From Fusobacteriota bacterium (GTDB lineage Bacteria > Fusobacteriota > Fusobacteriia > JAPLKR01): DNA of 30,468 nucleotides. Under the pieces are notes generated by a model that saw only the letters and a list, made by a program, of their open reading frames with translations, did not search any database and was not told the DNA's origin. The number at the start of each line of letters is the position of its first letter. The stretch's first letter is position 1. The position numbers and the translations under genes were made by a program. Positions 3,990 through 29,955 of the stretch are shown one piece after another. The stretch is from contig JAPLKR010000057.1 in the NCBI GenBank assembly GCA_026387965.1, positions 1 to 30,468 of the forward strand, read 5' to 3'.

Positions 3990-5405
3990 CTAACGAATGA
4001 TATCTACTTTTAGCATGTTTGTAGCTCCTGTTTTAAATAATGGTACACCTGCAACAACTACAATTATATCCCCTTTAGAAGCAAACCCATGAGATTGTGC
4101 ATATTTTTCTGAAAATCCATAGAAATCATCTGTCGTTTCAAATTTTGTATTAATCAATACTGGCTCAACTCCTCTGATAAGTGTTAATTGTTTTGAAGTT
4201 TTTTCGTTAGGGGTAAAAGCAAGAATTTTTCCTTCTGGGAAGAATTTTCTGATGTTCATTACAGTTTTTCCACTTTTAGTTGCAACACAAATAACTTTTG
4301 CATGTAAATTGTTTGCTGCTTCTACAGCGCTTTTGGAAACTGAACCTGTAATTGTAGCATCACACTCTAAACTCTCTACATCTACAATCATTTCTTTGTC
4401 AGCAAGTTGACAAATTTTTGCCATTACAGTTACTGTTTCAACCGGGTATTTTCCTTTTGCTGATTCTCCTGAAAGCATTACAGCATCTGTTCCATCTAGA
4501 ATAGCATTTGCAACGTCAGTCGACTCAGCTCTTGTAGGTCTAGGGTTTTTAATCATTGAATCTAGCATTTGAGTTGCAGTAATAACAGGCTTCCCGGCAG
4601 CATTACATTTTGCAATCATCATTTTTTGTAAAAAAGGCACTTGCTCGATAGGTACTTCTACCCCTAAATCTCCACGCGCAACCATAATTGCATCCGAAAC
4701 AGCTAAAATCTCATCAAAGTTATCTACACCCTCTTGGCTTTCAATTTTAGAAATGATTTTGATATTCTCTCCACCATGTTTCTCTAAATGCTCTCTCATT
4801 TCAAGAACATCTGATTTCTTTCTAATAAACGAAGCAGCAACAAAATCAACACCTTGCTCACATCCGAAAATCAAATCTGAAGCATCTTTTTCAGAAATTG
4901 CTGGAAGACTTACTGTTACATTTGGTAAGTTTACCCCTTTGTTTTCACCAAGCATTCCATTGTTTTTTACGACACATTTAATTTCAATTCCATTAATTTC
5001 TTGAACTTCCATTTCAATTAAACCATCATCAATTAACACGATGTTTCCAGGTTTCAAATCAAGTGGCAGGTGCTCATAAGTAACGGCAACTCTATCTTTA
5101 TTCCCAATTGCAGTTTTATCAGTTGTAATTGTGAACGTTTGACCTGTCATTAACTCAACATCGTTTCCACCTTCAAGTTTAATGGTTCTGATTTCTGGAC
5201 CTTTAGTATCAAGCAAAATTCCAATAGTTTTACCTGTTTTAGCCATAACTTCACGAATATTTTTAATTCTATTGCCATGCTCTTCATGATCGCCATGAGA
5301 GAAGTTTAAGCGAATAATATTCATTCCTGCATCAACAAGTTTTGTTAACATTTCGATAGATTCACTCTTTGGACCAATAGTACAAATAATTTTAGTTTTT
5401 TTCAT
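3990..5405 (-). CDS. pyk: Pyruvate kinase, PykF type
   Basis: Glycolytic enzyme transferring phosphate from phosphoenolpyruvate to ADP in the cytoplasm. Its 471 residues match the roughly 470 of the E. coli PykF type, with no extra C-terminal PEP-utilising domain. Visible landmarks are the N-terminal KTKIICTIGPKS, the RLNFSHG and DTKGPEIRT substrate loops, the B domain at about 70-165, the SFIRK and ISKIES segments (catalytic Lys), MVARGDLG with the metal-binding Glu/Asp set, and ITATQMLDSM with NPRPTRAE. Similarity to PykF suggests activation by fructose 1,6-bisphosphate, but that is inference. It starts with ATG 26 bases after pfkA with GAGG upstream, so the two genes are probably cotranscribed and pfkA supplies the upstream step. 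Confidence 0.97.
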   Translation of the reverse strand: MKKTKIICTIGPKSESIEMLTKLVDAGMNIIRLNFSHGDHEEHGNRIKNIREVMAKTGKTIGILLDTKGPEIRTIKLEGGNDVELMTGQTFTITTDKTAIGNKDRVAVTYEHLPLDLKPGNIVLIDDGLIEMEVQEINGIEIKCVVKNNGMLGENKGVNLPNVTVSLPAISEKDASDLIFGCEQGVDFVAASFIRKKSDVLEMREHLEKHGGENIKIISKIESQEGVDNFDEILAVSDAIMVARGDLGVEVPIEQVPFLQKMMIAKCNAAGKPVITATQMLDSMIKNPRPTRAESTDVANAILDGTDAVMLSGESAKGKYPVETVTVMAKICQLADKEMIVDVESLECDATITGSVSKSAVEAANNLHAKVICVATKSGKTVMNIRKFFPEGKILAFTPNEKTSKQLTLIRGVEPVLINTKFETTDDFYGFSEKYAQSHGFASKGDIIVVVAGVPLFKTGATNMLKVDIIR

Positions 5406-5431
5406 TTTTATTTATCCTCACTTTTATTTTT

Positions 5432-6424
5432 TTATTTTGCTAGTGCCATTGTAATCTCAAAATCTTTTTCAGAAATATGTTTTTTGTACTTCCAAGCATG
5501 TGAGATTGGGTAAGTAACTAATTTATTTGATTCAACACCAACCATAATTCCGCCCTGATTTTCAGCAAGCATTTCGACAGCATAGTATCCAAGCTTTGAA
5601 GCTAGAATTCTATCCATTGCTGTAGGAGCTCCACCACGTTGCACATGCCCGAGTATTGTAACACGCATTTCATTTTGCTCTTTTTTTGTCAGATATGGTT
5701 TTAGCTCTTCTGCAACTTTTTCAGCCGGCGCTACACCCTCTGCGCAAATTACAATGTCATGAAGTTTGCCATTTTCAAAACGCTGGGCTATATGGGCGCC
5801 CATCTCTTCAATGTTATATCCACGCTCAGGAATTAAAAGCCCATCTCCTCCTCCTGCCATGCAGGCGTAAAGGGCTAAATAACCGGCATCTCTTCCCATC
5901 ACTTCAATAATATAAGTTCTTTCGTGCGAGGTTGCTGTATCTCTTATTTTAGACACAGCATCTAAGATTGTATTAAGTGCTGTATCAAACCCAATCGTAA
6001 AATCCGTTCCCGAGATATCATTATCGATCGTTCCTGGAAGCCCTATAACTTTAATTCCGTGTTCCTTGTAAAGCATATCCGCACCACGGTAGGAACCGTC
6101 ACCACCAATAACTATAAGCCCTTGAATCCCGTGTGCTTTAAGATTCTCAGCCGCCTTTGCTCTGCCTTCAACATTTCTAAAATCCTCACAACGTGCACTT
6201 AAAAGAAATGTGCCTCCACGGTCGATAATTCCGCCTACTTCTTTACTCGTCAGCCGAAAAATATCATTGTTGATAAGACCTTGATAACCTCGTCGAACAC
6301 CATAGACACTCATTCCAAATGCAAAAGCTGCTTTACATACTGCTCTTATTGCAACATTCATTCCTGGCGAATCACCGCCGCTTGTTAACACTGCAATCGT
6401 TTTGATTTCTAGTGAATCTTCCAC
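5432..6424 (-). CDS. pfkA: ATP-dependent 6-phosphofructokinase
   Basis: Phosphorylates fructose 6-phosphate to fructose 1,6-bisphosphate, the committing step of glycolysis. The 330-residue product carries the nucleotide-binding GGDSPGMN near the N terminus, GGDGS, PGTIDND with the catalytic Asp, and the substrate segment MGRDAG. Gly in GGDGS and Gly before TIDND are the residues associated with ATP use; the pyrophosphate-dependent enzymes have Asp and Lys there. The start is GTG at 6424 with GGAGG four bases upstream. The N terminus has about seven residues more than the shortest PfkA proteins. A good sigma-70-type promoter lies 50-80 bases upstream, making this the first gene of a pfkA-pyk-yqeK-regulator-kinase unit, though readthrough from rlmB is also possible because no terminator is seen between them. 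Confidence 0.97.
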   Translation of the reverse strand: MEDSLEIKTIAVLTSGGDSPGMNVAIRAVCKAAFAFGMSVYGVRRGYQGLINNDIFRLTSKEVGGIIDRGGTFLLSARCEDFRNVEGRAKAAENLKAHGIQGLIVIGGDGSYRGADMLYKEHGIKVIGLPGTIDNDISGTDFTIGFDTALNTILDAVSKIRDTATSHERTYIIEVMGRDAGYLALYACMAGGGDGLLIPERGYNIEEMGAHIAQRFENGKLHDIVICAEGVAPAEKVAEELKPYLTKKEQNEMRVTILGHVQRGGAPTAMDRILASKLGYYAVEMLAENQGGIMVGVESNKLVTYPISHAWKYKKHISEKDFEITMALAK

Positions 6425-6438
6425 TTATCCTCCTTTGG

Positions 6439-6460
6439 AAATATTTTGTATAAAATATTT
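6439..6460. repeat. AT-rich inverted repeat between pfkA promoter and start
   Basis: AAATATTTT and AAAATATTT are exact reverse complements separated by GTAT. The repeat lies in the 5-prime leader of pfkA, between the -10 box and the GGAGG site. It could be an operator or a weak hairpin; its AT-only arms mean chance is a real alternative. Confidence 0.4.
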
Positions 6461-6473
6461 TGTATTTATGGTT

Positions 6474-6502
6474 ATTATATCTCACTTAGATTAATTTTTC
6501 AA
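6474..6502 (-). promoter_or_regulatory. Sigma-70-type promoter of pfkA-pyk operon
   Basis: On the minus strand TTGAAA (6502-6497) and TATAAT (6479-6474) are separated by exactly 17 bases. The predicted transcript starts near 6467 and gives a leader of about 40 bases before the GTG of pfkA. Confidence 0.8.
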
Positions 6503-6537
6503 TCTTTTTGTAAAATATTATTAATTTTTTTAAAAAA

Positions 6538-7242
6538 TCATTTTATTTTCTCGTGGACAGCACTTAAAATTATCCCTGTTGCAACAGATACGTTAAGTGA
6601 ATTAACATTCCCACTCATAGGAATGGTTACTGTAAAATCTGCCTTTTCCTGAACTTTTTTTCTTATTCCAAATCCTTCGCTTCCTAGTAAAATAACTGAT
6701 TTAAAACTATACTTTTCTTCTAAATATGTTTTGCTTCCTTCCGTATCAATGCTATACACCCAATATCCGACTTTTTTAAGTTTCTCAATCGCTTGGGAAA
6801 GATTATTTACATAACAAATAGGAATATGACTGATCGCTCCAGTAGAGGTTTTAATTGTTGTTTCCGTAACACGTGCACGTCCATGTTCGGGCAAAATAAT
6901 AATATCTACACCAAATGCATCAGCACTTCGAATAATAGCACCTAAATTTCTAGGATCCTGTACCTGATCTAAAATTAACACGATGGATTTGTTTTTCGAA
7001 ATACTCTCGTGCACAAACACTTCAAATTCCATAAGTTTTAACTCTTCATCAACAATGGCTGTTATTCCATCTTGATTTTTCGAACGTTTCTTAACGTACT
7101 GAATCGTTATCCCTTTTTTTTCAGCTAACTCTTCTATTTGAATTTTTCTTGAATGTTTAATATTTTCGTAAATCTCTATGAGCGTCATTTTCTTCTCACT
7201 TTTAATATACTCTATAACAGCATTAGCTCCTTCAACTATCAT
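6538..7242 (-). CDS. rlmB: 23S rRNA 2'-O-ribose methyltransferase of the TrmH/RlmB family
   Basis: SpoU-type (SPOUT) RNA methyltransferase of 234 residues. An N-terminal substrate-binding domain (about 1-75, starting VEGANAVIEYI) is followed by the three SPOUT motifs: DQVQDPRNLGAIIRSADAFG, ILLGSEGFGI and IPMSGNVNSLNVSVATGI, which form the knotted S-adenosylmethionine site with the catalytic Arg and Asn. RlmB modifies a guanosine of 23S rRNA (G2251 in E. coli); assignment within the family, RlmB against other TrmH-like enzymes, rests on the N-terminal domain and length and is likely but not certain. The ATG lies two bases after the murA stop, with GAGG inside the end of murA, so the two are coupled. 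Confidence 0.9.
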   Translation of the reverse strand: MIVEGANAVIEYIKSEKKMTLIEIYENIKHSRKIQIEELAEKKGITIQYVKKRSKNQDGITAIVDEELKLMEFEVFVHESISKNKSIVLILDQVQDPRNLGAIIRSADAFGVDIIILPEHGRARVTETTIKTSTGAISHIPICYVNNLSQAIEKLKKVGYWVYSIDTEGSKTYLEEKYSFKSVILLGSEGFGIRKKVQEKADFTVTIPMSGNVNSLNVSVATGIILSAVHEKIK

Positions 7243-7244
7243 TA

Positions 7245-8522
7245 TTATACCTCATCTTCTAGTCTAACACGTGTTATTTTTGCACCAAGTTTTGTCAATT
7301 TCTCTTCAAATTTGTCATAACCTCTATCGATGTGGTAAATTCTTCGAACCAAGGTTTCGCCCTCGGCCATAATACCGGCAAGGACTAGTGAGGCTCCTGC
7401 GCGAAGGTCTGATGCCATTACTTCCGTTGCAGAAAATTTTTCTACGCCACCTTTGATAAATGCTGTGTGACCCTCAATATGAATATGAGCTCCTAACCGC
7501 TCTAATTCAGGAACATGCATAAAACGATTTTCAAAAACCGTTTCAGCCACTGTGCTCTCGCCATTAACCATCGCCATTAGAATCATTATTTGTGATTGTA
7601 AATCTGTAGGATACCCCGGATGTGGCATCGTTTTAATGTTGACAGGTTTTAAGTTTTTTAAATCTGCTTCGATATGTAGCTCTTCATCAATTTCCGTAAA
7701 CACTACACCCATTTTTTCTAAAACTTCATAAAATTTCTCAATATGTTCTCTGACAGCACCTTTAACTATGATACTCCCGCCTTGCAGTATAGATGCAATG
7801 ATAAATGTACCTGCTTGAATTCTATCATTAATTACTCGATGCTTGGCACCGTGAAGGTGGTCTACACCTTCAATAACAATCGTACTACTTCCTGCACCTA
7901 TTATTTTAGCACCCATCGCATTCAAGAAATTTGCTAAATCCTCTATCTCAGGTTCACGTGCTGCATTCTCAAGTATCGTTGTTCCTTCTGCAAGAGTTGA
8001 AGCCATCATAATATTTTCGGTCGCGCCTACACTTGGAAAATCTAAAATTATCTTAGTTCCTACGAGTTTATCAGCTTTTGCTTCAACATATCCATGCTCA
8101 ATTACAATTTTAGCACCTAATTTTTCAAACCCCTTTAAATGATAGTCTACCGGTCTTGCGCCAATAGCACACCCTCCAGGAAGCGAAACTCTTGAGTGTC
8201 TTTCTGATGCCAGAATTGGACCCATTACCAAAAACGAAGCTCTCATTTTCTTTACTAAGTTGTAAGGTGCTTCAATACCAGTTAACCCTGGGTTTATAAT
8301 GACTAAGTGATTTGGATTTTCCCAGTGAATTTCTAATCCAAAATGCGCTAACAGTTCTATCATTGAGTGAATATCTTTTAGGTTTGGAACATTTTCTAGA
8401 TCAAAACGCCCTTTTGCAAGTAGCGTAGCCGCCAAAATTGGAAGGGCAGAATTCTTTGCCCCTCCAACTTCAACAATTCCAGAAAGTTTTGATCCGCCTT
8501 CAATCTTGTATGCGTATCCCAT
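7245..8522 (-). CDS. murA: UDP-N-acetylglucosamine 1-carboxyvinyltransferase (MurA)
   Basis: Catalyses the first committed step of peptidoglycan synthesis, adding enolpyruvate from PEP to UDP-GlcNAc in the cytoplasm. The 425 residues include the Lys23-Asn24 pair in [10 protein letters not shown], the catalytic loop [20 protein letters not shown] with Cys118 (the residue attacked by fosfomycin in this family), and the C-terminal [18 protein letters not shown] with the conserved Asp and Arg. The Cys is intact, so the enzyme should be fosfomycin-sensitive, by inference. Its ATG follows the TAA of the RND pump with no gap, and its ribosome binding site GGAGG lies in the pump gene. An essential wall gene is thus read as the fourth gene of an efflux unit, with no separate promoter seen. 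Confidence 0.97.
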
Positions 8523-11500
8523 TTAATTTCTTTCCTCCAATTTTTTCGCTTTTAAATATTTCTTGTAGTTTAGATTATACAGTATAGTATATATCGCAGG
8601 AGCAAGAATTACAATATACAACATTTCAAATAGAAGACCAAATATGATTGCCACGGCCATTCCTGCAAAGAGTTGACCGCCACCAATCCATAGAGGAATC
8701 ATTCCAAGAATTGCGGTTAGTACCGTAATGGTCACTGGTCTTGTTCTTCTTACGATAGATTCAACAAGCGCTGCATTATGGTCTCCGCCATTATGATGCA
8801 ACTCAATGTCGATTCTATCGATCAGCACAATAGCATGGTTCAGTATGATTCCGACCAGAGAAAGTACCCCAAGCATTGGCATAAATCCAAACGATTGCCC
8901 TGTTATTAGAAATCCTATAATTACACCGATAATACTAAATGGTAGTATTAAGAAGAGTGTGATTGGCTTTCTAAATGAGTTGAATTTAACCATAAGCAGT
9001 GTAAAGATAATAAAGATTGTAATTGGCATACCTGCTGCAATCGAACCTGACGATTGAGAGCTGTTCTGCTGATCTCCTCCAATTTGCCAGAAAATTCCTT
9101 GGCTCTTCCACTCAGCTTCATTAGCATGAACAGCTACAAGTACTTTGTTTAAAATATCTGTTGGTGTAACATTTCCCGATGCATTGGCATAGGCGGTAAC
9201 ACAATCAAATCCACTGTAGTGCTGAATTTGCTCATATACAAAACTTGTATCAATGGTTGCAACTTGATTAAGTGGTACATAAGTATTTTGTGTGCTCGAA
9301 TACAACATAGTGGTATCAAGTGTATTTACTTCACTACCTGTTTTTAATCCTCGAAGTGCAATTGGTACCGTCTGCTCAGTAATATAGTAATCTGTTATCG
9401 GAAGTCCACCATAATTCATTTGAAGCGAATATCCAACGTCTTGACTACTAATACCTAAATCTCTTAACTTATCTTGATTCAAATTAATATTAAATTGCGG
9501 TGTTGGATTACCCCAGTTATCGCCTACATCCACAGCACCTGGAATATTAGCCATTACTGACTGAAGTTGGATTGATGCAGCTTTAAGCGCTTCCTTATTT
9601 TCTCCAAGTAAGCGAATTTCAACATCATGATCTGCTGGAGGCCCAAGCGTTAGCCTTTCAATGGTAATCTGACCACCTGGAATTTCTTGAGCTCCATATT
9701 GACGTAGGTCACCCATCACTTTGTCCATATTTTTTGTATTAGCAAGGTTAATGATGACTGTAGCTTCATTTGATGAATTTGAGGTTGGACTGTAGGTTAG
9801 TGTGAAACGTGGGGCATCACTTCCTACAAAGCTGGTCCAATTGGTTACACCATTCGGCCGTTTTGATGATTGCTTTAAATTATCAGAAATGTATTTATTC
9901 AATCCCTCAATAACATCATTTGTTCCATATACCGAAGCATTATTCTCTAGCTGAACCTTAAAAATAATTGTTGCATTATCTGCATAAGGGAAAAACACCT
10001 GTGGAATATATTTCCAAAATGGCAGTACAATGACAAGAGCTAAAACAAATACCCCCACCACTCTCCAAGGGTGTGACAGTAGTTTATAATTAAACGCACG
10101 ATATTTCTTATAAAACGGCGTGTTATATAAATCTTCTCCCTTATGTTCCTTTAAAGAAGTTTCTACTTTCACAACTTGAGTTGCTTCATTCGTTTTTTTC
10201 TTTTTACCGAACCGTTTTTTCTTTGGCTCAAGTAATTTCTTCTCATTAAAGTATTTTACAAACAGCACCGGTATACATGTTGTTGCAATAAACCACGAGC
10301 AAACAAGAGTCAGTGTGATTACAATGAATAGGTCCGCTGTATATTGCCCCGCACTTGTTGGTGACAAAAATATTGGTAAAAATGTGGCTGATAGGCAAAG
10401 TGTTGATACAATAAGTGGAACCCATACTTCATTTACCGACTCTAAGATGGCTGTTTTCTTATCCATTCCTTCTTCAACCTTAACAATGGCACCTTCGACG
10501 ACAACAATTCCGTTATCGACGAGAATTCCGAGAGCAATCATAAGTGCTGATAAAGATACCTGGTTAATCGTTACGCCTAATATTGACATAAAGGCAAATG
10601 TTGCAAATATCGTAAGTGGAATAATTGAAGCAATCAACACACCGCCACCTATTCCAACGAAGATAATTACCGATGCACATACAATAACAATCGCTTCAAT
10701 CAGGTTTTCTAAAAATGCTGAAATACTTTCTTTCGTGGTTGTTGCTTCAAAAAACACTTGATGAAATTGCATTCCTTGAGGTAAAGCCTTTGTATTAAAA
10801 TAACTGGTTAAATTTTTACCTAAATTTAAGATGTTTCCTCCAGGAGCAAGAGAAATTGAAAAAAGCATTGCTGGCTGACCGTTGTAATATGTCGCTGTTG
10901 TTGGAGGATCTTGATATGTCTCCTCTACATCTGCAATATCTTTTAGCTCAATCGTTTGACTTTGTCCTGGTATTCCAATGACGGTATTTCTAATTTGATC
11001 CACCGTTGCATAGTCCCCTGAAGGATTTAGATTGATTTGGTTGCCACCAATATAAAGAATTCCACTTGGAACAACTACGTTCTCTGTCGTAAGAATTTGA
11101 GCTATTAAGTAAGGATTTAATTTTAAATTTGCCATTTTATCCATATCAAATTTAATATAAATCGTTTTTTGAAGTTCACCTTGATTTTGAACTTTACCTA
11201 CTCCAGGTATCATGCCTAATTCACGGGTGATTTGATCTGCTTGTGTTTTTAGATCTCCATTGTTATATCCTTCACCTGTCAGAGCATATACAGACCCATA
11301 TACATCACCGAAGAAGTCATTAATAACGGGACCAATGATACCTTTCGGCAGCCCATTACTTTGCTCTAACATCTCCATATAGCGTCTCATCCATGTCCAC
11401 TCTTCTTGAAGTGTAGCCCCTTCTGAGTACTGAGCTAGAACGTTAACATAAACCGTTGACATGCCATCTTGAGATGTACTGTTAGTATACCAAAGCCCTG

Positions 11501-11723
11501 GTAAGTTTTGAAGTTGCTTTTCAATAGGAGCGGTGATACGGTTTTCAACTTGCGCCGCTGTTGCTCCTGGATAATATGTCACAATTACAGCCGTTCCAAC
11601 TGAAAATGTTGGGTCCTCTGCTTTTGGCATCATAATATATCCGATTGTTCCAGCTAGCATAATTACAACCATTACCCATACAATTATCCGTGTCTTTTTT
11701 AAAGAAAATTTTGTTAAAAACAT
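8523..11723 (-). CDS. RND-family efflux pump, inner membrane subunit
   Basis: Proton-driven transporter of the AcrB/MexB superfamily, 1066 residues, the normal length. An N-terminal membrane helix (about 12-32) precedes the first periplasmic porter region, then a bundle of membrane helices (about 335-500), a second periplasmic region (about 575-865) and a second bundle (about 865-1050). The fourth helix reads GILVDNGIVVVEG: Asp403 aligns with AcrB Asp407, but position 404 is Asn, not the second Asp. In the tenth helix SLVGIILNHAIVLID has Asn where AcrB has Lys940. Pumps with a single relay Asp are known, so it is probably active. The linker between the two halves, about 500-545, is very rich in Lys. 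The ATG follows the adaptor stop by three bases with AAAGGAGG upstream. Substrates cannot be told; drugs, lipids or metabolites are possible. Confidence 0.95.
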   Translation of the reverse strand: MFLTKFSLKKTRIIVWVMVVIMLAGTIGYIMMPKAEDPTFSVGTAVIVTYYPGATAAQVENRITAPIEKQLQNLPGLWYTNSTSQDGMSTVYVNVLAQYSEGATLQEEWTWMRRYMEMLEQSNGLPKGIIGPVINDFFGDVYGSVYALTGEGYNNGDLKTQADQITRELGMIPGVGKVQNQGELQKTIYIKFDMDKMANLKLNPYLIAQILTTENVVVPSGILYIGGNQINLNPSGDYATVDQIRNTVIGIPGQSQTIELKDIADVEETYQDPPTTATYYNGQPAMLFSISLAPGGNILNLGKNLTSYFNTKALPQGMQFHQVFFEATTTKESISAFLENLIEAIVIVCASVIIFVGIGGGVLIASIIPLTIFATFAFMSILGVTINQVSLSALMIALGILVDNGIVVVEGAIVKVEEGMDKKTAILESVNEVWVPLIVSTLCLSATFLPIFLSPTSAGQYTADLFIVITLTLVCSWFIATTCIPVLFVKYFNEKKLLEPKKKRFGKKKKTNEATQVVKVETSLKEHKGEDLYNTPFYKKYRAFNYKLLSHPWRVVGVFVLALVIVLPFWKYIPQVFFPYADNATIIFKVQLENNASVYGTNDVIEGLNKYISDNLKQSSKRPNGVTNWTSFVGSDAPRFTLTYSPTSNSSNEATVIINLANTKNMDKVMGDLRQYGAQEIPGGQITIERLTLGPPADHDVEIRLLGENKEALKAASIQLQSVMANIPGAVDVGDNWGNPTPQFNINLNQDKLRDLGISSQDVGYSLQMNYGGLPITDYYITEQTVPIALRGLKTGSEVNTLDTTMLYSSTQNTYVPLNQVATIDTSFVYEQIQHYSGFDCVTAYANASGNVTPTDILNKVLVAVHANEAEWKSQGIFWQIGGDQQNSSQSSGSIAAGMPITIFIIFTLLMVKFNSFRKPITLFLILPFSIIGVIIGFLITGQSFGFMPMLGVLSLVGIILNHAIVLIDRIDIELHHNGGDHNAALVESIVRRTRPVTITVLTAILGMIPLWIGGGQLFAGMAVAIIFGLLFEMLYIVILAPAIYTILYNLNYKKYLKAKKLEERN

Positions 11724-11726
11724 AGT

Positions 11727-12833
11727 CTAATCCTCCTTTACTAAAGGAGTTACAATCTGACCATCGTTAATACTATAAGTTCCTGCCGCAACAATTTGCT
11801 GCCCTTGTCGCAATGCGCCTTTAACGATATAACCGCTTGGCATTGCTTTTTGAATATCCACTGGAATAAACTGTAACTTCAAATTACTAGAACCTGAAAT
11901 TGAATTAACTCCAAACACGCCCGTTTGATTATTAATTTTTGTTACCGAAGTGTTTGGAACTAAGAATCCTGACCCACTTATATTAGACATGTATTTATTT
12001 GGGATATTGAAAGTTACGTTTAATGTCATTCCTATCACAACATCTTTTGGGGGTTTTACTAAATTCACTCTTATTTGGTATGTGTTACCCACACCTGTCG
12101 GAACATTGCTGATACTTTGAATCACACCATTAAAATTTTCACTACCATTTTGAATTTGAACCGATTGCCCAACCTTTACATTTTGAACGGTATCAATTGG
12201 CACTCCAACAAATACTTGGTAAGTCGTATTCGCACTTGTCATAACAAATACAGGTGTCCCTGCCGCTACATTCGTCCCCTGATCAACAAGTTGAACTGAA
12301 ATCGTCCCTGTAAATGGCGCTGCTAGCTGTGTATAGCTTAATTGGTTTTGCAGTACCCCGATTTTCTTTTGAACCGAAATCACTTCATTTTGAGCATATT
12401 GATATTGCGCTGTGGCATTATCAAGTGACGCTGCCGAAGCATCGCCTTGTGCATAAAGCTGCTGAGCACGAATTAAGTCACTTTTTGCATTTTGTGCTTG
12501 CGCTTTCGCTTGCTGTAAATTTGCTTGAGCGCTTTGTAGTTGTAACTCATAGTTACTTGGATCAAGTGTCGCTAGAATTGTTCCCGATTTTACAAAATCT
12601 CCTTGACTAACATACATATTTGTAATATTTCCATCTACCTTAAAACTTACATTAGATTGTGTCGTTGCCTGAACAATTCCGTTATATGTGTACTGCTGTA
12701 AGCTTCCTGACATTCCAACTGTAGTTAACTTTACAATAGAAACATCTTTTGCAGGTTCTGTTTTTTTCCCACACCCTCCTAAAACAGAGAGTGCAATCAG
12801 TGTTGCCCCCGTTACATATCCGATTTTTTTCAT
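11727..12833 (-). CDS. RND efflux adaptor (membrane fusion) lipoprotein
   Basis: Periplasmic adaptor of the AcrA/MexA family, 368 residues, linking the pump to the outer membrane channel. The signal peptide ends in a lipobox, LSVLGGC with Cys21, so it should be lipid-anchored. Then come the first half of a lipoyl-like domain (SFKVDGNITNMYVSQGDFVK), an alpha-helical hairpin rich in Ala and Gln (about 85-160, QLQSAQANLQQAKAQAQNAK), the second lipoyl half (LAAPFTGTISVQLVDQGTNV), a beta-barrel domain and a membrane-proximal domain. The ATG has GGGGGAAG upstream and lies ten bases after the TolC-like gene. Order outer channel, adaptor, pump fits one transcript for one complex. Confidence 0.95.
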   Translation of the reverse strand: MKKIGYVTGATLIALSVLGGCGKKTEPAKDVSIVKLTTVGMSGSLQQYTYNGIVQATTQSNVSFKVDGNITNMYVSQGDFVKSGTILATLDPSNYELQLQSAQANLQQAKAQAQNAKSDLIRAQQLYAQGDASAASLDNATAQYQYAQNEVISVQKKIGVLQNQLSYTQLAAPFTGTISVQLVDQGTNVAAGTPVFVMTSANTTYQVFVGVPIDTVQNVKVGQSVQIQNGSENFNGVIQSISNVPTGVGNTYQIRVNLVKPPKDVVIGMTLNVTFNIPNKYMSNISGSGFLVPNTSVTKINNQTGVFGVNSISGSSNLKLQFIPVDIQKAMPSGYIVKGALRQGQQIVAAGTYSINDGQIVTPLVKED

Positions 12834-12843
12834 CTTCTTCCCC

Positions 12844-15192
12844 CTATTTTTGAGAATTCACAGTTTGTAAGCTTCCTGAAACTGCTTGGTTTAAATTTTG
12901 AATAAATTGTTGATTTTCTGCTGATGTTTTCTCCATACTCATCCATGTAATTGAGCGTTCAAGAGCATAATAATTACTTTGAAGCGTATATTTTGCATCT
13001 GCTACATTTTGCTGGGTTTGAAACTCAAGATTTTGCGCATCGAGTAAATCTAGCATCGTTGCCACACCATTTTGATACGTATTCATAACCAATTGTAGGT
13101 TTTTTATTGCTGTGATATTGGCTTCTTGAGATTTTGTATAGTTAATGCTTCCTGTTTTTAAATTTTGAAGCGCATATGCAACATTTTGTTGAATAAGATT
13201 AATTGCAGCGAGTTTTTTAGTTTGCATCGCTTGCAAAGTGGCATTTGCCCCTGCATATTCTGCCACATGACCACCACTGCTAAAGAGTGGAAGTGACGCT
13301 TGAACACCAATATTCCAATATCCTTTTGGCCCACTGCCCATGTTAGCAACGGCCTGCTGCGTTTGTGGAGAAAATGATCCAATTAAATTATTAAATCCAT
13401 TTGGATAACTTGCATTTGACTCCCAGAAATTATAGTTGTAGCCCCCAAAAGCGGCTACAGTTGGAATGAAAAATTGTTGAAATTGAAAATCTTTACTGCT
13501 TTGACTCGAATCAATATATTGGTTCAATTGCTGAATTTCATAAGAATTAGCAATGCCTACTTGCACTAAATAATTTTGAAGTTTTTGGTAAACTAACATA
13601 TTCGTCAAATAAGGCGTAATCGCTATAAGTAACTCGTTGCTCTGAACGTCTTGTAAATTATATGTTGTTGTAATGCTTACATTCATGACCGTATCTAAGT
13701 TTTGCATCGCAATATTGTAAGTCGCTTTTGCTTGCTCATACTGATTTGAATCTAAAATGTATTTACTTTCCCAACGATAAATTTCCATATTTGAAGTACT
13801 TCCGACATTCGTTTTAACTTTAGCTGCATTTAAATTCTGCTTAGAAAGCTCCATATTCGAGCGTGATACTTTCACCAATGCTTGTGATTTAAGCACATTC
13901 AAATATGCGTCAATGGTTCCGACAATTGTATTCTCTATTTGAATTTGACTTTGAAGTTGAGAGGCTTTGTAAGTATTACTTTGAACCGCATAGTTTAAAT
14001 TAACTTCGGGGCTATAGAGCACTTGAGTTAAATTTACTCCACCACTAAAACTTTGTTGTCTTTGTACACCAAAAGTGCTTTGCGCTGCAGCAGGATCCAT
14101 TGCGAGTCCCGTCAATGTTGCATTTACTTGTGGAAAATATAAGCTTCCCGCAGTAGCTGCAGCAGATTTAGATGCTTGAGTTTGATAGTTTTGCGCCTTT
14201 ATATCTAAATTATTTGCAAGGGATATTTGAATAGCTTGTTCTAGCGTCAAAGGTTGCTGCTGGCTATTGTCAATCATTGTTGCACTTTCCATAGAAGCAA
14301 ACGTTGGGGCTTTTTGCTGTGAATTTATCAACGCCTGATTATAATACACTGAAGCTTTTTGGTAGATTTGATTCTTCACATATACCGAAGGATCTTGATA
14401 TTGAAGTAGATTTTGTACATTTATAGCAGTCGATGCCGCATACGGCGCTATTATACTTGCCCCTAAAAACCCTGAATAGAGTAAATTAGGGTCAAAGTTT
14501 TGAGGCAGAACTGCAAATGTCGGTATGTTCTTTTGATTCAATATCGTCAGGAGCGACGAAGCGTCTGAGGCTGAGAATGTCACAAATGGTGAAAACAGAA
14601 CGCCTTGTGTTGCAGAAATTTCATCAATTAAATTGCTATCTTTATCTCCTACGACCTGTACTTTGGCCGACAATTTGGACACATTCACGTAATTTTGGTA
14701 AAGTTGAACGGTCGCACTCGGCACCACCAATGTTATTGTCGTCAAATTAAGTGCTTTTGAAAACGTATTTATGGCACTATCCACAGCAAATCCATTTACT
14801 GTGATCACTCTCGTTGGCGTTTGTGTTCCTTTTGTGAGTGACCCCGAAATATCTACCGGCACATTAAAATTCATATTTGATGCAATACTCGACCCTAATG
14901 GACCAACAATAATAAGTGCATCTAATTTTTTAGCATTCGCACTGGTCAAAACGCTTTGTAGTGATGTCGCACTTCCTGAAGCGGTAAAAATATTTTGTGG
15001 TAAAATTTCAGCTTTATCAGTTTGGTACGTAAAACCATCTTTTAAGCTTGATTGTAAACTCGTTACTATCCCTACATTTGCAGAATTTGAGTTATCGAAA
15101 ACAATCCCCACTTCATACATCTTGGCTAAACTAATTACTGATAACCCAAATAGTACTGCAGATGAAAGACCAATATAGTACCCTTTTCCCAT
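12844..15192 (-). CDS. TolC-like outer membrane efflux protein with N-terminal substrate-binding-like domain
   Basis: This 782-residue protein is far longer than ordinary TolC-family proteins (about 430-500). An N-terminal signal-like helix (about 5-23) is followed by a region at about 26-275 with alternating strands and helices resembling a periplasmic substrate-binding protein of the ABC_sub_bind type: VGIVFDNSNS, LDALIIVGPLGSSIA, TTITLVVPSATV, TQGVLFSPFV, IPTFAVLPQ and GFLGASIIAPYAAS. From about 314 (QPLTLEQAIQISLANNLDIK) to the end the OEP repeats are clear, with long Gln/Asn/Ala-rich coiled-coil helices and two repeats (about 314-540 and 560-770). The OEP part should form the outer membrane channel for the pump encoded downstream. 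The role of the extra domain is unknown. It is first in the operon, with GGAGG four bases before ATG. The OEP call is firm; the fold of the N-terminal part is my reading of the pattern. Confidence 0.88.
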   Translation of the reverse strand: MGKGYYIGLSSAVLFGLSVISLAKMYEVGIVFDNSNSANVGIVTSLQSSLKDGFTYQTDKAEILPQNIFTASGSATSLQSVLTSANAKKLDALIIVGPLGSSIASNMNFNVPVDISGSLTKGTQTPTRVITVNGFAVDSAINTFSKALNLTTITLVVPSATVQLYQNYVNVSKLSAKVQVVGDKDSNLIDEISATQGVLFSPFVTFSASDASSLLTILNQKNIPTFAVLPQNFDPNLLYSGFLGASIIAPYAASTAINVQNLLQYQDPSVYVKNQIYQKASVYYNQALINSQQKAPTFASMESATMIDNSQQQPLTLEQAIQISLANNLDIKAQNYQTQASKSAAATAGSLYFPQVNATLTGLAMDPAAAQSTFGVQRQQSFSGGVNLTQVLYSPEVNLNYAVQSNTYKASQLQSQIQIENTIVGTIDAYLNVLKSQALVKVSRSNMELSKQNLNAAKVKTNVGSTSNMEIYRWESKYILDSNQYEQAKATYNIAMQNLDTVMNVSITTTYNLQDVQSNELLIAITPYLTNMLVYQKLQNYLVQVGIANSYEIQQLNQYIDSSQSSKDFQFQQFFIPTVAAFGGYNYNFWESNASYPNGFNNLIGSFSPQTQQAVANMGSGPKGYWNIGVQASLPLFSSGGHVAEYAGANATLQAMQTKKLAAINLIQQNVAYALQNLKTGSINYTKSQEANITAIKNLQLVMNTYQNGVATMLDLLDAQNLEFQTQQNVADAKYTLQSNYYALERSITWMSMEKTSAENQQFIQNLNQAVSGSLQTVNSQK

Positions 15193-15254
15193 ATTTCCTC
15201 CACTTTCACTAAATTTAATTTCTTATGTTTTTTAAATAGCTAATTACACTTATA

Positions 15255-20369: not shown

Positions 20370-21353
20370 CTATTTAATTCTGATACTGCTGTCGATTAAT
20401 ATTTTCACCTCTTGTGGCGTAATGTTTTTCATACACTCAAAATGTTTTTTAGGACACTCCCTATCCCCGTGAAGAGAACAAGGTTGACACACAACATTGG
20501 CTTGTAGTAAAATTTCACGCTGAGTAAAGGTAAACATATTGGGATCCGTTGGCCCAAAGAAGACAAATACGTTTCTTTTAAGTGCCCGTGCGATGTGAAA
20601 TAGTGCCGAATCATTGCACACAACAAATTTTGCATTTGAAATCACAGCACCACTCTCTTTCAAACTAAATTTTCCGCATAAGTTTTCAACATGTAAAATT
20701 TTCTCTCTTGCAAGCAGAGGTTCTAGCACACTAAAATCTTTGCGGTCTCCAACAAATTTTACGGGTATATTAGATAATTTTGCTAACTCCATAAAATAGC
20801 TCACCGGCCACTTCTTCGTCTCCTTAGACGCTCCAATTGCCATAACGCAATACTCCCCATTTGGAATTTTCTCTTTATCCTTTTTTGATATAAAAAACTC
20901 TAACTCCTCTCCGATATTTTCTACGCCTAAAGAGCTCACTGCACCAAAATAATTATTCACAATAGACCCATTCACATGGTACTTTATCATCTTCATCTTA
21001 ACAAACACTGTCTTCCAAAGGGAACGCTTCTTATACCTGTAAGTTGGCTTTCCTAAGAATTTTGCTACCAACTTAGACCGTATTTTCGCATGTAAATCCA
21101 CAACACAGTCATACTCTTTAGATAGATTACTACTCACAAACTTTTTAATTCCAGACTTTCCTTTATAGTGCTCTTTATCAAATAAAATCACCTTACTTAC
21201 ACTATCAATACCTAGAATTGCCTCTTCAAATTGTTTTAATACTAAAATATCTATCTCAGCCGAAGGAAACTTTTGACTTAGAGCCCTCAAAATAGGTGTG
21301 GTCAAGATAATATCTCCAATAGAACTAAACCTTATGACTAGAATTTTTTTCAT
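20370..21353 (-). CDS. Glycosyltransferase family 9 protein (heptosyltransferase type), copy 2
   Basis: Protein of 327 residues of the WaaC/WaaF/RfaF class, which adds heptose or a related sugar to the inner core of lipopolysaccharide at the cytoplasmic face. The N-terminal half starts ILVIRFSSIGDIILTTPILR, the typical acceptor-side segment with the catalytic Asp. The C-terminal half holds the nucleotide-sugar site (CVMAIGASKETKKWPVSYF, then NDSALFHIARAL and FGPTDP). The end carries CQPCSLHG and CPKKHFECM, found in many family members. The ATG has GAGGTG seven bases upstream, inside the preceding gene, and the coding regions overlap by 29 bases. It is related to the upstream gene but clearly diverged, so it probably adds a different residue. 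The donor sugar is not known. Confidence 0.92.
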   Translation of the reverse strand: MKKILVIRFSSIGDIILTTPILRALSQKFPSAEIDILVLKQFEEAILGIDSVSKVILFDKEHYKGKSGIKKFVSSNLSKEYDCVVDLHAKIRSKLVAKFLGKPTYRYKKRSLWKTVFVKMKMIKYHVNGSIVNNYFGAVSSLGVENIGEELEFFISKKDKEKIPNGEYCVMAIGASKETKKWPVSYFMELAKLSNIPVKFVGDRKDFSVLEPLLAREKILHVENLCGKFSLKESGAVISNAKFVVCNDSALFHIARALKRNVFVFFGPTDPNMFTFTQREILLQANVVCQPCSLHGDRECPKKHFECMKNITPQEVKILIDSSIRIK

Positions 21354-22359
21354 CTTGCACCTCGCTTAATGCCTTTTCAATTTCTAAAAGCACTCTTTCA
21401 GGTGTAATATTTCTCATACACTCAAAATGACCCTTAGGACAGCTTTCGCCACCATGCAGGCCACACGGTCTGCACTCCACGTTCAAATCTTCTAAAACAA
21501 TGCTATTTTCACTCCAAGGGTAGAAACCTAATTCCTTTACCGTTGCACCAAATATAGCAATTACCTTTGCTTTTGTGGCCGAAGCAAAATGAATTGGAGA
21601 GCTATCATTACTCACCACTACATCACACCGCCGAAATATCTCATACACCTCTAAAAGTGAGGTGTGCCCCATCAAATCTATCACATTTTCATGATTTTTA
21701 GAGATATCAAGCAAACTCTCCTCTTTACCCCCAATTAAAAGTACTTGCACCTCTTTTTTTGAAAGCAGTTCAAGAAGTGCGGATACATACTCCATCGGCC
21801 ACTGTTTTGTGAACCATTTACTTCCTGGCGCTAGGGCAATAAGAGGCTTCCTGTCATCAACGTGATTTTTCATAAATAGTTGGTCCACACCCTGTTCTAA
21901 GGTAAAACACCCATAAAGTTTAATCGGCGTTTTTCTCTCTTTAAAATCTTCAAACCTCAGTAACCGTTCTACCTCATGGACTCCCTTGATATAGGGAACT
22001 TTTTGTGTAAGCATCCAACTGCCTCCACTCACATCATATCCAATTCGTTCAGGAATTTTAGCAAATTTAGCAAGTGCAACACTTCTAAGATAACGATGAA
22101 AAATGTAAGCCCTATCAAAATGGTATTTTTTCAGTCGCTCAGACATCCTTAAAAATCCCTTTAATCCTTTATGCTCTCCCCTTTTATCATAAACAATCAC
22201 CTCTTTGATATGTGGATTGTTTGCAAGCACTTGTGCGCCTAATTTTGTGGTTACATAGTATATTTCCGCCGATTTATCGTTTGCGTATAAACTCTCAATA
22301 AACGGTGTAGATAGGATAATATCTCCTATAAAGGCGGTATGAATAATGAGCAGCTTCAT
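21325..22359 (-). CDS. Glycosyltransferase family 9 protein (heptosyltransferase type), copy 1
   Basis: Protein of 344 residues of the same class as its downstream neighbour. It starts LLIIHTAFIGDIILSTPFIE, has LIALAPGSKWFTKQWPMEY and NDSSPIHFASATKAKVIAIF for the nucleotide-sugar site and ends with CRPCGLHGGESCPKGHFECM. The first segment is closest to WaaF (heptosyltransferase II), but the exact reaction is inferred. The ATG overlaps the stop of comFC (ATGA), and its binding site AAGGAG lies in the last codons of comFC. Two such enzymes in a row are strong evidence for a lipopolysaccharide or lipooligosaccharide core and hence for an outer membrane. Confidence 0.92.
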   Translation of the reverse strand: MKLLIIHTAFIGDIILSTPFIESLYANDKSAEIYYVTTKLGAQVLANNPHIKEVIVYDKRGEHKGLKGFLRMSERLKKYHFDRAYIFHRYLRSVALAKFAKIPERIGYDVSGGSWMLTQKVPYIKGVHEVERLLRFEDFKERKTPIKLYGCFTLEQGVDQLFMKNHVDDRKPLIALAPGSKWFTKQWPMEYVSALLELLSKKEVQVLLIGGKEESLLDISKNHENVIDLMGHTSLLEVYEIFRRCDVVVSNDSSPIHFASATKAKVIAIFGATVKELGFYPWSENSIVLEDLNVECRPCGLHGGESCPKGHFECMRNITPERVLLEIEKALSEVQDEKNSSHKV

Positions 22360-27549: not shown

Positions 27550-27570
27550 TATAAATTCTTGGAGGTTCGT

Positions 27571-28416
27571 TTGAAAAAAATTATTTTTTCCCTATTTTTT
27601 AGTGTCATTTCAGCTTGTATTTTAGCAAGCTCCATTCCGACTGTTACGGTATCTATTGCACCAGAAAAATATTTTGTTCAAATGATTGCAAAAAGCAGTG
27701 TCGATGTTAACATTCTCACACCTAACAATGTAGAGGCTGAATACTTTTCGCCTACGCCACAACAACTGATCAATTTAAAAAATTCCGATCTCTATTTTCA
27801 AATAGGGCTGCTCCATTTTGAAGCTACCATTAATTCGAAAATAAAATCTATTGCACCGAATACACAGGTGATTAATCTTTCTCAAAATTTGAATCTCACT
27901 TCAAACGCAGACCCACACATCTGGCTTTCTGTAAAAAATGCTCAGGTAATGTCTCAAACTATTTATAATGCTCTGTGTAATAAATATCCGCAAAACAAAG
28001 CTTTCTACACAAAAAATTATCAAAAACTTCAAGCTCATAATGTAAAACTAGCTAAAGAAATGACCTTTATATTGAAAAAATTTCAAGGATATTCATTTAT
28101 CACCTATCACCCTGCATACTCATATTTTGCTTCTGAATATGGTCTAAATGAGGTAGCTATTGAACAAAATGGAAAAGAACCTTCACCCCAGCAAATGGCG
28201 AACATTATTCAATTAGCAAAACGAAATCACATTCCTACAATTTTTATACAGTCCCAAGTCAATGATAAACCAGCCCTTGTTATTGCAAAACAAATTAGAG
28301 CGCAAGTTATAGTTCTTAACCCAATGGCAGAAAATTGGCCAAATAATATGTTAAATATCGCAACAAAATTGTCAGGGTCTTTTCAAGTTGGTGATTATGA
28401 TTCTAGAAGTCTCTAA
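27571..28416 (+). CDS. ZnuA-like metal-binding protein of an ABC importer
   Basis: Extracytoplasmic solute-binding protein of the cluster 9 (ZnuA/TroA) family, for zinc or manganese, 281 residues. The start is TTG at 27571 with GGAGG five bases upstream. The signal peptide is LKKIIFSLFFSVISACILAS; a Cys is present (ISAC), but the residues around it do not make a clear lipobox. Two of the usual ligands are visible, His in DPHIWLS and His in YHPAYSYFASEYGL. The first ligand, normally His in a P-H-x-F/Y-x-P-T-P context, is Glu in EAEYFSPTP. The His-rich loop common in ZnuA is missing. The gene overlaps the ATPase gene by 20 bases. Metal preference is therefore open. Confidence 0.88.
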   Translation: MKKIIFSLFFSVISACILASSIPTVTVSIAPEKYFVQMIAKSSVDVNILTPNNVEAEYFSPTPQQLINLKNSDLYFQIGLLHFEATINSKIKSIAPNTQVINLSQNLNLTSNADPHIWLSVKNAQVMSQTIYNALCNKYPQNKAFYTKNYQKLQAHNVKLAKEMTFILKKFQGYSFITYHPAYSYFASEYGLNEVAIEQNGKEPSPQQMANIIQLAKRNHIPTIFIQSQVNDKPALVIAKQIRAQVIVLNPMAENWPNNMLNIATKLSGSFQVGDYDSRSL

Positions 28417-29131
28417 TTTATCTATCACCCTTGATGGTATTACAATCATCGAACCATGTTCTTTTTCAGTTTCAGAAAACGATTTTATTGGTATCATTGG
28501 CCCTAATGGAGGTGGAAAATCCACACTTATTAAAGCTTTCCTAGGTTTGATACCTTATAGTGGTAGCGTAAACTTTTCCATTCCTCTTTCACATATTGGT
28601 TACCTTCCGCAATTTAATCATTCTATTGATAAACGCTTTCCCATTACTGTGGAAGAAATTATTCTTTCCGGAATTGAAGGGATAACACCAAAACTCACTA
28701 AAAATGAGAAAAAAAATAAGCTCACTCATGTCCTTTCTACTTTTAACCTTACACGTCTTAAAAACAACTCGATTGGCACTTTATCTGGCGGAGAAATTCA
28801 AAAAACGCTTCTGGCTAGAAGCATTATTAGTAACCCAAAGCTTCTAATATTAGATGAACCTACAAATTTTATAGATCATACATCTGAGCAAGAACTCTAT
28901 ACTATTCTTAAAAACCTCAACCAAACGATGGCTATTATGATGATTTCACACGATTTAGCCATTATTCCAACATACATTAAGTCTATCCTATGTGTGAATA
29001 AAAGTGTTCATTTTCACGCAGGAAATGCCATTACTCCAGAAGTACTTTCAACATATCACTGCCCCGTCGAACTTATTGCTCACGGAAGCTTTCCTCACCG
29101 TGTTGTAGAATCCCATAAAAAGGAGTCTTAA
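28397..29131 (+). CDS. ABC transporter ATPase for zinc/manganese uptake (ZnuC-like)
   Basis: Cytoplasmic ATPase of 244 residues that powers the importer. Motifs: Walker A GPNGGGKSTL, Q-loop YLPQFNHS, signature LSGGEIQKTLLARS, Walker B LLILDEPTNFID and switch His in MMISHD. I choose ATG 28397, where ILEVSNLSI begins the usual first strand; TTG 28388 and GTG 28391 are in the same frame and possible. The start lies inside znuA, so the two are translationally coupled. The C-terminal 40 residues (HFHAGNAITPEVLS onward) contain several His, as in other ZnuC proteins. Confidence 0.93.
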   Translation: MILEVSNLSITLDGITIIEPCSFSVSENDFIGIIGPNGGGKSTLIKAFLGLIPYSGSVNFSIPLSHIGYLPQFNHSIDKRFPITVEEIILSGIEGITPKLTKNEKKNKLTHVLSTFNLTRLKNNSIGTLSGGEIQKTLLARSIISNPKLLILDEPTNFIDHTSEQELYTILKNLNQTMAIMMISHDLAIIPTYIKSILCVNKSVHFHAGNAITPEVLSTYHCPVELIAHGSFPHRVVESHKKES

Positions 29132-29133
29132 AA

Positions 29134-29955
29134 ATGTTAGAGCTATTTTCTTATCAGTTCATGCAAAATGCCTTTATCGGGTCTATCTTAGTGAGCATTT
29201 TATGTGGTATTATTGGGAGTTACATTGTTGTAACTCGAAAAGTTCTTATATCAGGGAGTATCTCACATGCTTCTTTTGGGGGCATTGGAATTGCTTTTCT
29301 TCTCAATATGCCTCCTCTTCTATGTGCTTCAATATTTAGTGTCATTGTAGCTGTTCTTATTCAATGGATGTCTAAACATCTAAAGATGCGTGAGGATTCA
29401 GCTATTGGCATGATTTGGGCTTGTGGAATGGCTATTGGAGTTATTGCAATCTATCTCGCCCCTGGTTACGCTAAAGATTTAGGTTCCTATCTATTTGGAA
29501 ATATCTTAACACTTAGCAGTAGTGATCTCTTTTTTTCTGCTTCAATTATGATACTCCTTATCATTTTTTTTACGCTATTTTATAAAACTATCTTATATGG
29601 TGCTTTTGACTCTGAGTATATGAAAACACGTGGAGTTTCAACAAAAATAATTGATTATCTCTTAATGGTGCTGTTAGCCCTTACCATTATCGCATCACTT
29701 CGATTAATTGGAATTATTTTGATTGTTGCCATGCTCACAATCCCGCAAGAATGCGCCTCAATTTTTGTTAAAAAATTGAAGTTTATGATATATTATTCCA
29801 TTGTTATTTCTTTAATCGCTTCAATATTAGGACTTATCATCTCTTTTTATCTTAATGTGCCTTCAGGCCCTATTATTATTTTACTTCTTATACTGTTTTA
29901 TAGTATCTTAAAGGGCTTGTTCCTTTTAAAGATACAAATAAAAAAGAGAACTTGA
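29134..29955 (+). CDS. ABC-3 family metal importer permease (ZnuB-like)
   Basis: Membrane permease of 273 residues with about eight hydrophobic segments. The family hallmark is present near the N terminus (GSYIVVTRKVLISGSISHAS) and centrally (YMKTRGVS, then LIGIILIVAMLTIPQECA). AGGAG lies ten bases before the ATG, inside the end of the ATPase gene; the two genes are two bases apart. With the binding protein and ATPase it makes a complete importer. Its last codons, for KKRT and TGA, lie inside the terminator stem. Confidence 0.93.
   Translation: MLELFSYQFMQNAFIGSILVSILCGIIGSYIVVTRKVLISGSISHASFGGIGIAFLLNMPPLLCASIFSVIVAVLIQWMSKHLKMREDSAIGMIWACGMAIGVIAIYLAPGYAKDLGSYLFGNILTLSSSDLFFSASIMILLIIFFTLFYKTILYGAFDSEYMKTRGVSTKIIDYLLMVLLALTIIASLRLIGIILIVAMLTIPQECASIFVKKLKFMIYYSIVISLIASILGLIISFYLNVPSGPIIILLLILFYSILKGLFLLKIQIKKRT

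Follow-up and report, generated by a model that had tools for sequence, protein, structure and literature searches.

Why should the outer-membrane duct of an efflux pump carry, in front of its barrel and tunnel, a domain that resembles the substrate-binding proteins of importers? In models of such pumps, the TolC duct plays a passive part, that of a pipe recruited by the adaptor. The question is raised by a gene on the minus strand of the window, by which we mean the whole stretch of 30,468 nucleotides that was analysed. This gene (12844..15192) starts with ATG, is preceded at a distance of four bases by a Shine–Dalgarno-like GGAGG (15197..15201, minus strand), and was read as an open reading frame of 782 amino acids. 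A preliminary description, made from the sequence, had placed here a TolC-like protein with about 290 residues ahead of its OEP repeats, and this is confirmed, the OEP part beginning at residue 317. In the order of the protein, and with all features on the minus strand, residues 1–23 form a putative signal peptide (15124..15192) that lacks a lipobox Cys and whose hydrophobic leader is also found in relatives; residues 24–310 form the added domain, hereafter the N-domain (14263..15123); residues 311–316 are a short linker to the duct (14245..14262), the equivalent stretch of which is of low confidence in the model of a Cetobacterium homologue; and the first OEP repeat (PF02321, residues 317–504, 13681..14244) and the second (PF02321, 12952..13569) follow. 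The match to PF02321 reaches 128.5 bits against a cut-off of 22, in two stretches, which identifies the protein as an outer-membrane factor. Thus, the fusion is a complete TolC/OEP duct preceded by a domain of about 287 residues with a binding-protein fold.

The nature of the N-domain had to be established without help from domain annotation, since the roughly 287 residues ahead of the OEP part have no Pfam match at E ≤ 10 in the window protein, neither that protein nor the 17 relatives scanned reach the Pfam gathering cut-off of ABC_sub_bind (PF04392), and no Peripla_BP family of Pfam matches any of the fusions scanned. Because it scores below the gathering cut-off, the window protein is kin to PF04392 and not a member of it. 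An AlphaFold2 model of window residues 24–314, of moderate confidence (mean pLDDT 60, pTM 0.58), predicts alternating strands and helices in a bilobed arrangement, with 3lkv (Z 17.0), 3lft (Z 16.1), and 6hni (Z 15.2), which belong to a single family of binding proteins, as its best structural matches and other type I folds, XylFII-LytSN being among the matches, at Z 13.5 or less. The full-length model of the Cetobacterium homologue is better (mean pLDDT 79) and the same three structures are its best matches in the N-domain region, residues 21–306 aligning with 3lkv at Z 21.9 over 274 residues. In this homologue, residues 314–741 match TolC with Z up to 29.8 and show the TolC-type barrel and helical tunnel, and the added domain ends about 10 residues before the residue aligned to TolC residue 1. 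Profile comparison by hhalign of 21 N-domains with 11 PF04392 proteins of Fusobacteriota gave E 3.4e-7, with a probability of 93% over 226 columns, whereas five unrelated families and a reversed control gave E 0.09–0.8. Moreover, the best PDB sequence match of the N-domain profile is again 3lkv (E 0.004), and among its lower-scoring hits in the phylum are seven stand-alone proteins that PF04392 finds as well. A bridge is provided by the 803-residue fusion of Sulfuricurvum kujiense, which scores 123 bits to the N-domain profile and 38.6 bits to PF04392 (cut-off 25.9), its OEP part also exceeding the Pfam cut-off. Taken together, the hhalign result, the profile hits, the bridge protein, and the structure prediction indicate that the N-domain has a bilobed type I periplasmic-binding-protein fold close to ABC_sub_bind. 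The type I fold proposed in the preliminary description is thus borne out by the predicted structure; of the Pfam families it named for a search, PF04392 proves to be related by hhalign and structure, although the N-terminal part of the window protein has no Pfam match of its own.

The fusion gene stands first in a tight operon, in which its stop codon is followed after 10 bases by the gene of an RND-type periplasmic adaptor (11727..12833, minus strand, 368 aa; profile match to TIGR01730, 186 bits) and, after a further 3 bases, by that of an RND permease (8523..11723, minus strand, 1066 aa; profile match to ACR_tran, E 5e-149). An adaptor and an inner-membrane pump as gene neighbours are again what characterizes an outer-membrane factor, and the suggestion that the fused duct shares one operon with pump and adaptor is upheld by these two genes. 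On the 3' side of the operon (window 3990-8522) lie aroA and genes for a SpoU methylase, phosphofructokinase, and pyruvate kinase, and in Cetobacterium, just before the pump operon (L080:2493-5260), there are pyruvate kinase-like and enolase-like genes, as judged by their first residues; the neighbourhood is possibly conserved. Elsewhere, the window carries two adjoining family 9 glycosyltransferases of heptosyltransferase type (20370-22359), which fits an LPS-bearing cell, and a metal-uptake locus consisting of a ZnuA-type binding protein, an ABC ATPase, and an ABC-3 permease (27559-29955). At three loci, a gene pair is located just upstream of the fusion operon (L075:2163-4189, L076:5186-7206, and L083:8737-10744); in the first, an MlaA lipoprotein is encoded next to a protein of 418 aa that matches no Pfam family, and the other two pairs resemble it by their first residues only. 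The MlaA-containing pair may hint at a link to outer-membrane lipids.

The source genome, that of a distant relative of Fusobacterium, is a draft of 1.79 Mb in 141 contigs; it falls into the class that includes Cetobacterium and the other Fusobacteriaceae and is the sole member of its order in the collection searched. It contains a second fusion of 739 aa on another contig (C58, L073:3895-9492), where the order is TetR, fusion TolC, HlyD-type adaptor, and EmrB-type MFS pump. Further OEP proteins are encoded on contigs C113, C118, and C53; some of the frames are not long enough for a fusion. A profile search of this genome found no stand-alone PF04392 protein, and PF06541, considered as an importer partner, was set aside, since TrpXYZ-type systems have a different permease.

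A search with the N-domain profile covered 98 Fusobacteriota genomes of 29 genera and found the domain joined to an OEP frame in 34 of these genomes, spread over 9 genera; this count omits weak hits to short stand-alone genes. The order TolC fusion, adaptor, and RND pump occurs in 23 of the 24 Fusobacteriaceae neighbourhoods inspected (overlapping contigs being counted separately), and the remaining one (L092) ends at a contig edge; in the Cetobacterium MAG UBA6069 (L037:10171-14843), the genes for adaptor and RND pump are fragmented into several frames. Outside the phylum, where the distribution was probed on plasmids, the fusion is present on the complete plasmid pSULKU01 of Sulfuricurvum kujiense (Campylobacterota), in the order TetR, PF04392/OEP fusion, HlyD adaptor, RbbA-like ABC protein, and ABC permease (L093:6247-14053). 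Plasmid hits in Nitratidesulfovibrio (a 412-aa gene) and Aureimonas (a 406-aa gene) proved to be stand-alone binding-protein genes and were rejected as fusions. The window protein itself, used as query against the genome contigs, found no relative because it is very divergent, whereas an alignment of Fusobacteriaceae proteins succeeded; an 18-sequence alignment was too divergent to yield search patterns. Counting the genomes, as had been suggested, therefore shows that the idea of an unusual, single arrangement was too strong, since the fusion is frequent among Fusobacteriaceae and public databases already list it, under the name 'TolC family protein' or 'ABC transporter substrate binding protein'; these names are misleading or partial. 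The search of the open literature returned no description of the fusion and no paper combining ABC_sub_bind and TolC. Both parts are thus of known kinds, and their combination is annotated in public records and without description in the literature searched.

The N-domain is under purifying selection, with dN/dS of about 0.05–0.29 over 19 close pairs, versus 0.03–0.12 for the OEP part. At all distances it has changed faster than the duct, and the divergence of the two parts runs in step, with r of 0.97 over 435 pairs and 0.90 for pairs below 60% duct identity, values that are inflated by the shared descent of the pairs; such parallel divergence is expected if both parts have travelled together since one fusion. 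Judged by selection, the N-domain has some function.

What this function is depends largely on whether the ancestral ligand site has been kept. Solitary PF04392-type proteins bind Trp, Tyr, or Phe (PMC6816091), and in TrpX five conserved residues contact the amino acid, namely T108, A127, T129, D152, and N233 (PMC9382623). In the profile alignment, these positions are occupied in the window protein by P, V, I, N, and V, and when 22 fusions were compared with the solitary proteins, the T, A, and T were kept in none, the D in one (Sulfuricurvum), and the last N in one, with the reservation that positions mapped at about 10% identity may each be off by a few residues. By contrast with these contact positions, positions that belong to the fold, D100 (a strand-start Asp), N145 (a hinge-region Asn), and N308 (the Asn of the C-terminal motif), are mostly kept across the fusions, the window protein having T in place of the hinge Asn. 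Moreover, a strand–helix unit of lobe 2, about 27 residues long, is absent from 12 of 30 aligned proteins, which belong to two genera, Cetobacterium (g4) and a second one (g6), whereas the bilobed fold is complete in the window protein and 18 of the 30; where lobe 2 is partly deleted, the operon is unchanged. Because the contact residues are lost in the alignment, the fusions have very probably given up the known way of holding an amino acid, and a different ligand, held by new residues, is possible.

The explanation that we favour, by a modest degree of belief, is that the N-domain is a repurposed periplasmic module with a docking or scaffold role rather than a cargo selector. On this reading, the fusion serves a tripartite RND efflux pump as its outer-membrane factor, and its PF04392-fold domain is placed a few residues before the first TolC helix; the domain would descend from a binding protein of the aromatic-amino-acid type, but the residues for gripping the ligand are no longer kept, and lobe 2 has been trimmed in some lineages. 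Outer-membrane factors are trimers with periplasmic N-termini, and three N-domains would, for this reason, lie in the periplasm and form a collar round the periplasmic body of the duct. There they would contact protein or envelope and dock, space, or stabilize the duct, the adaptor, and the pump. A docking or scaffold role is preferred to cargo selection because the same duct design is paired with three classes of pump (RND, EmrB-type MFS, and ABC-2), which speaks against the selection of cargo, and because the contact residues are gone. Nevertheless, a full bilobed fold, as in the window protein and 18 of 30 proteins, would be superfluous in a pure scaffold, the mapping of the pocket may slip at such low identity so that new residues could hold a different ligand, and the window model is only moderately confident.

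A second view, tentative and on the whole rather unlikely, follows the preliminary description: at the exit duct, the N-domain would sense a ligand or select cargo, its cleft binding a periplasmic compound and thereby gating or directing export. The retention of the bilobed type I fold in the window protein and in most genera, the purifying selection on it, and the use of such folds as sensors elsewhere, e.g., in XylFII-LytSN, are in its favour, but it has to account for contact residues almost wholly missing from the fusions compared, for the partial deletion of lobe 2 with no change in the operon, and for one design serving three pump classes. Thus, from the proposal that a ligand-binding module sits on the duct, the covalently joined fold stands, whereas the binding itself is called into question by the lost residues and by the trimming of lobe 2 in many relatives. 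A ligand-gated exit duct, in which a rebuilt cleft would let the three N-domains sense a periplasmic compound and so govern the opening of the duct or the docking of the pump, appears improbable, and if true, it would be a regulatory layer without description for TolC systems in the literature searched. The faster divergence of the N-domain, the loss of the contact residues, and the partial deletion in one branch would also suit a leftover from an ancient fusion, one that has little function and is tolerated outside the duct; yet the low dN/dS and the retention of the domain in 9 genera and two phyla point to selection to keep it, and we regard a leftover as quite improbable. Finally, the merging of two genes through a mistake in assembly or a frameshift, for which there speaks only the general risk of a 141-contig draft, can be rejected with near certainty, as the architecture recurs in 34 genomes, occurs on replicons that are complete, both in Cetobacterium somerae and in the Sulfuricurvum plasmid, and has a second copy within the source genome.

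The fusion is a case of a binding-protein fold transferred from import to export machinery. A conserved and selected periplasmic domain in the duct of many Fusobacteriota implies that the duct itself can carry an extra function. The N-domain escapes annotation, as most members lack a Pfam model for it.

Compared with TolC, OprM, and CusC (PF02321), the fusion has the same two OEP repeats with the TolC helix–strand pattern and shares the operon with adaptor and RND pump; residues 316–741 of the Cetobacterium model align with TolC residues 1–417 at Z 28.9, but TolC and OprM lack the extra domain of about 290 residues that precedes TolC residue 1. The N-domain shares its whole-domain fold (Z 15–22) with 3LFT, 3LKV, and 6HNI (TrpX/SP1069, VC1101, and CD0873, respectively) and has a remote sequence kinship to PF04392 proteins that includes the C-terminal Asn motif. 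Those substrate-binding proteins exist on their own, either secreted or anchored by a lipid; their partner is an ABC importer and their ligands are aromatic amino acids (PMC6816091), whereas the N-domain is joined to a duct and its contact residues are not conserved. Bucl8 is likewise a TolC-type duct with an added domain, but it is described as collagen-like and not as having a binding-protein fold (PMC7682875). The YbjP–TolC complex (9V52, 9TG4) also brings an extra envelope protein to TolC, but YbjP is a separate, unfused lipoprotein of the DUF3828 type, for which the account consulted (PMC13082787) reports no binding-protein fold. A further counterpart is WP_041667226.1 of Sulfuricurvum kujiense ('ABC transporter substrate binding protein', 803 aa), which has the same two-domain order as the window fusion and likewise leads an efflux operon, here behind a TetR gene, but belongs to another phylum, Campylobacterota, and serves an ABC-2 type pump instead of an RND pump.
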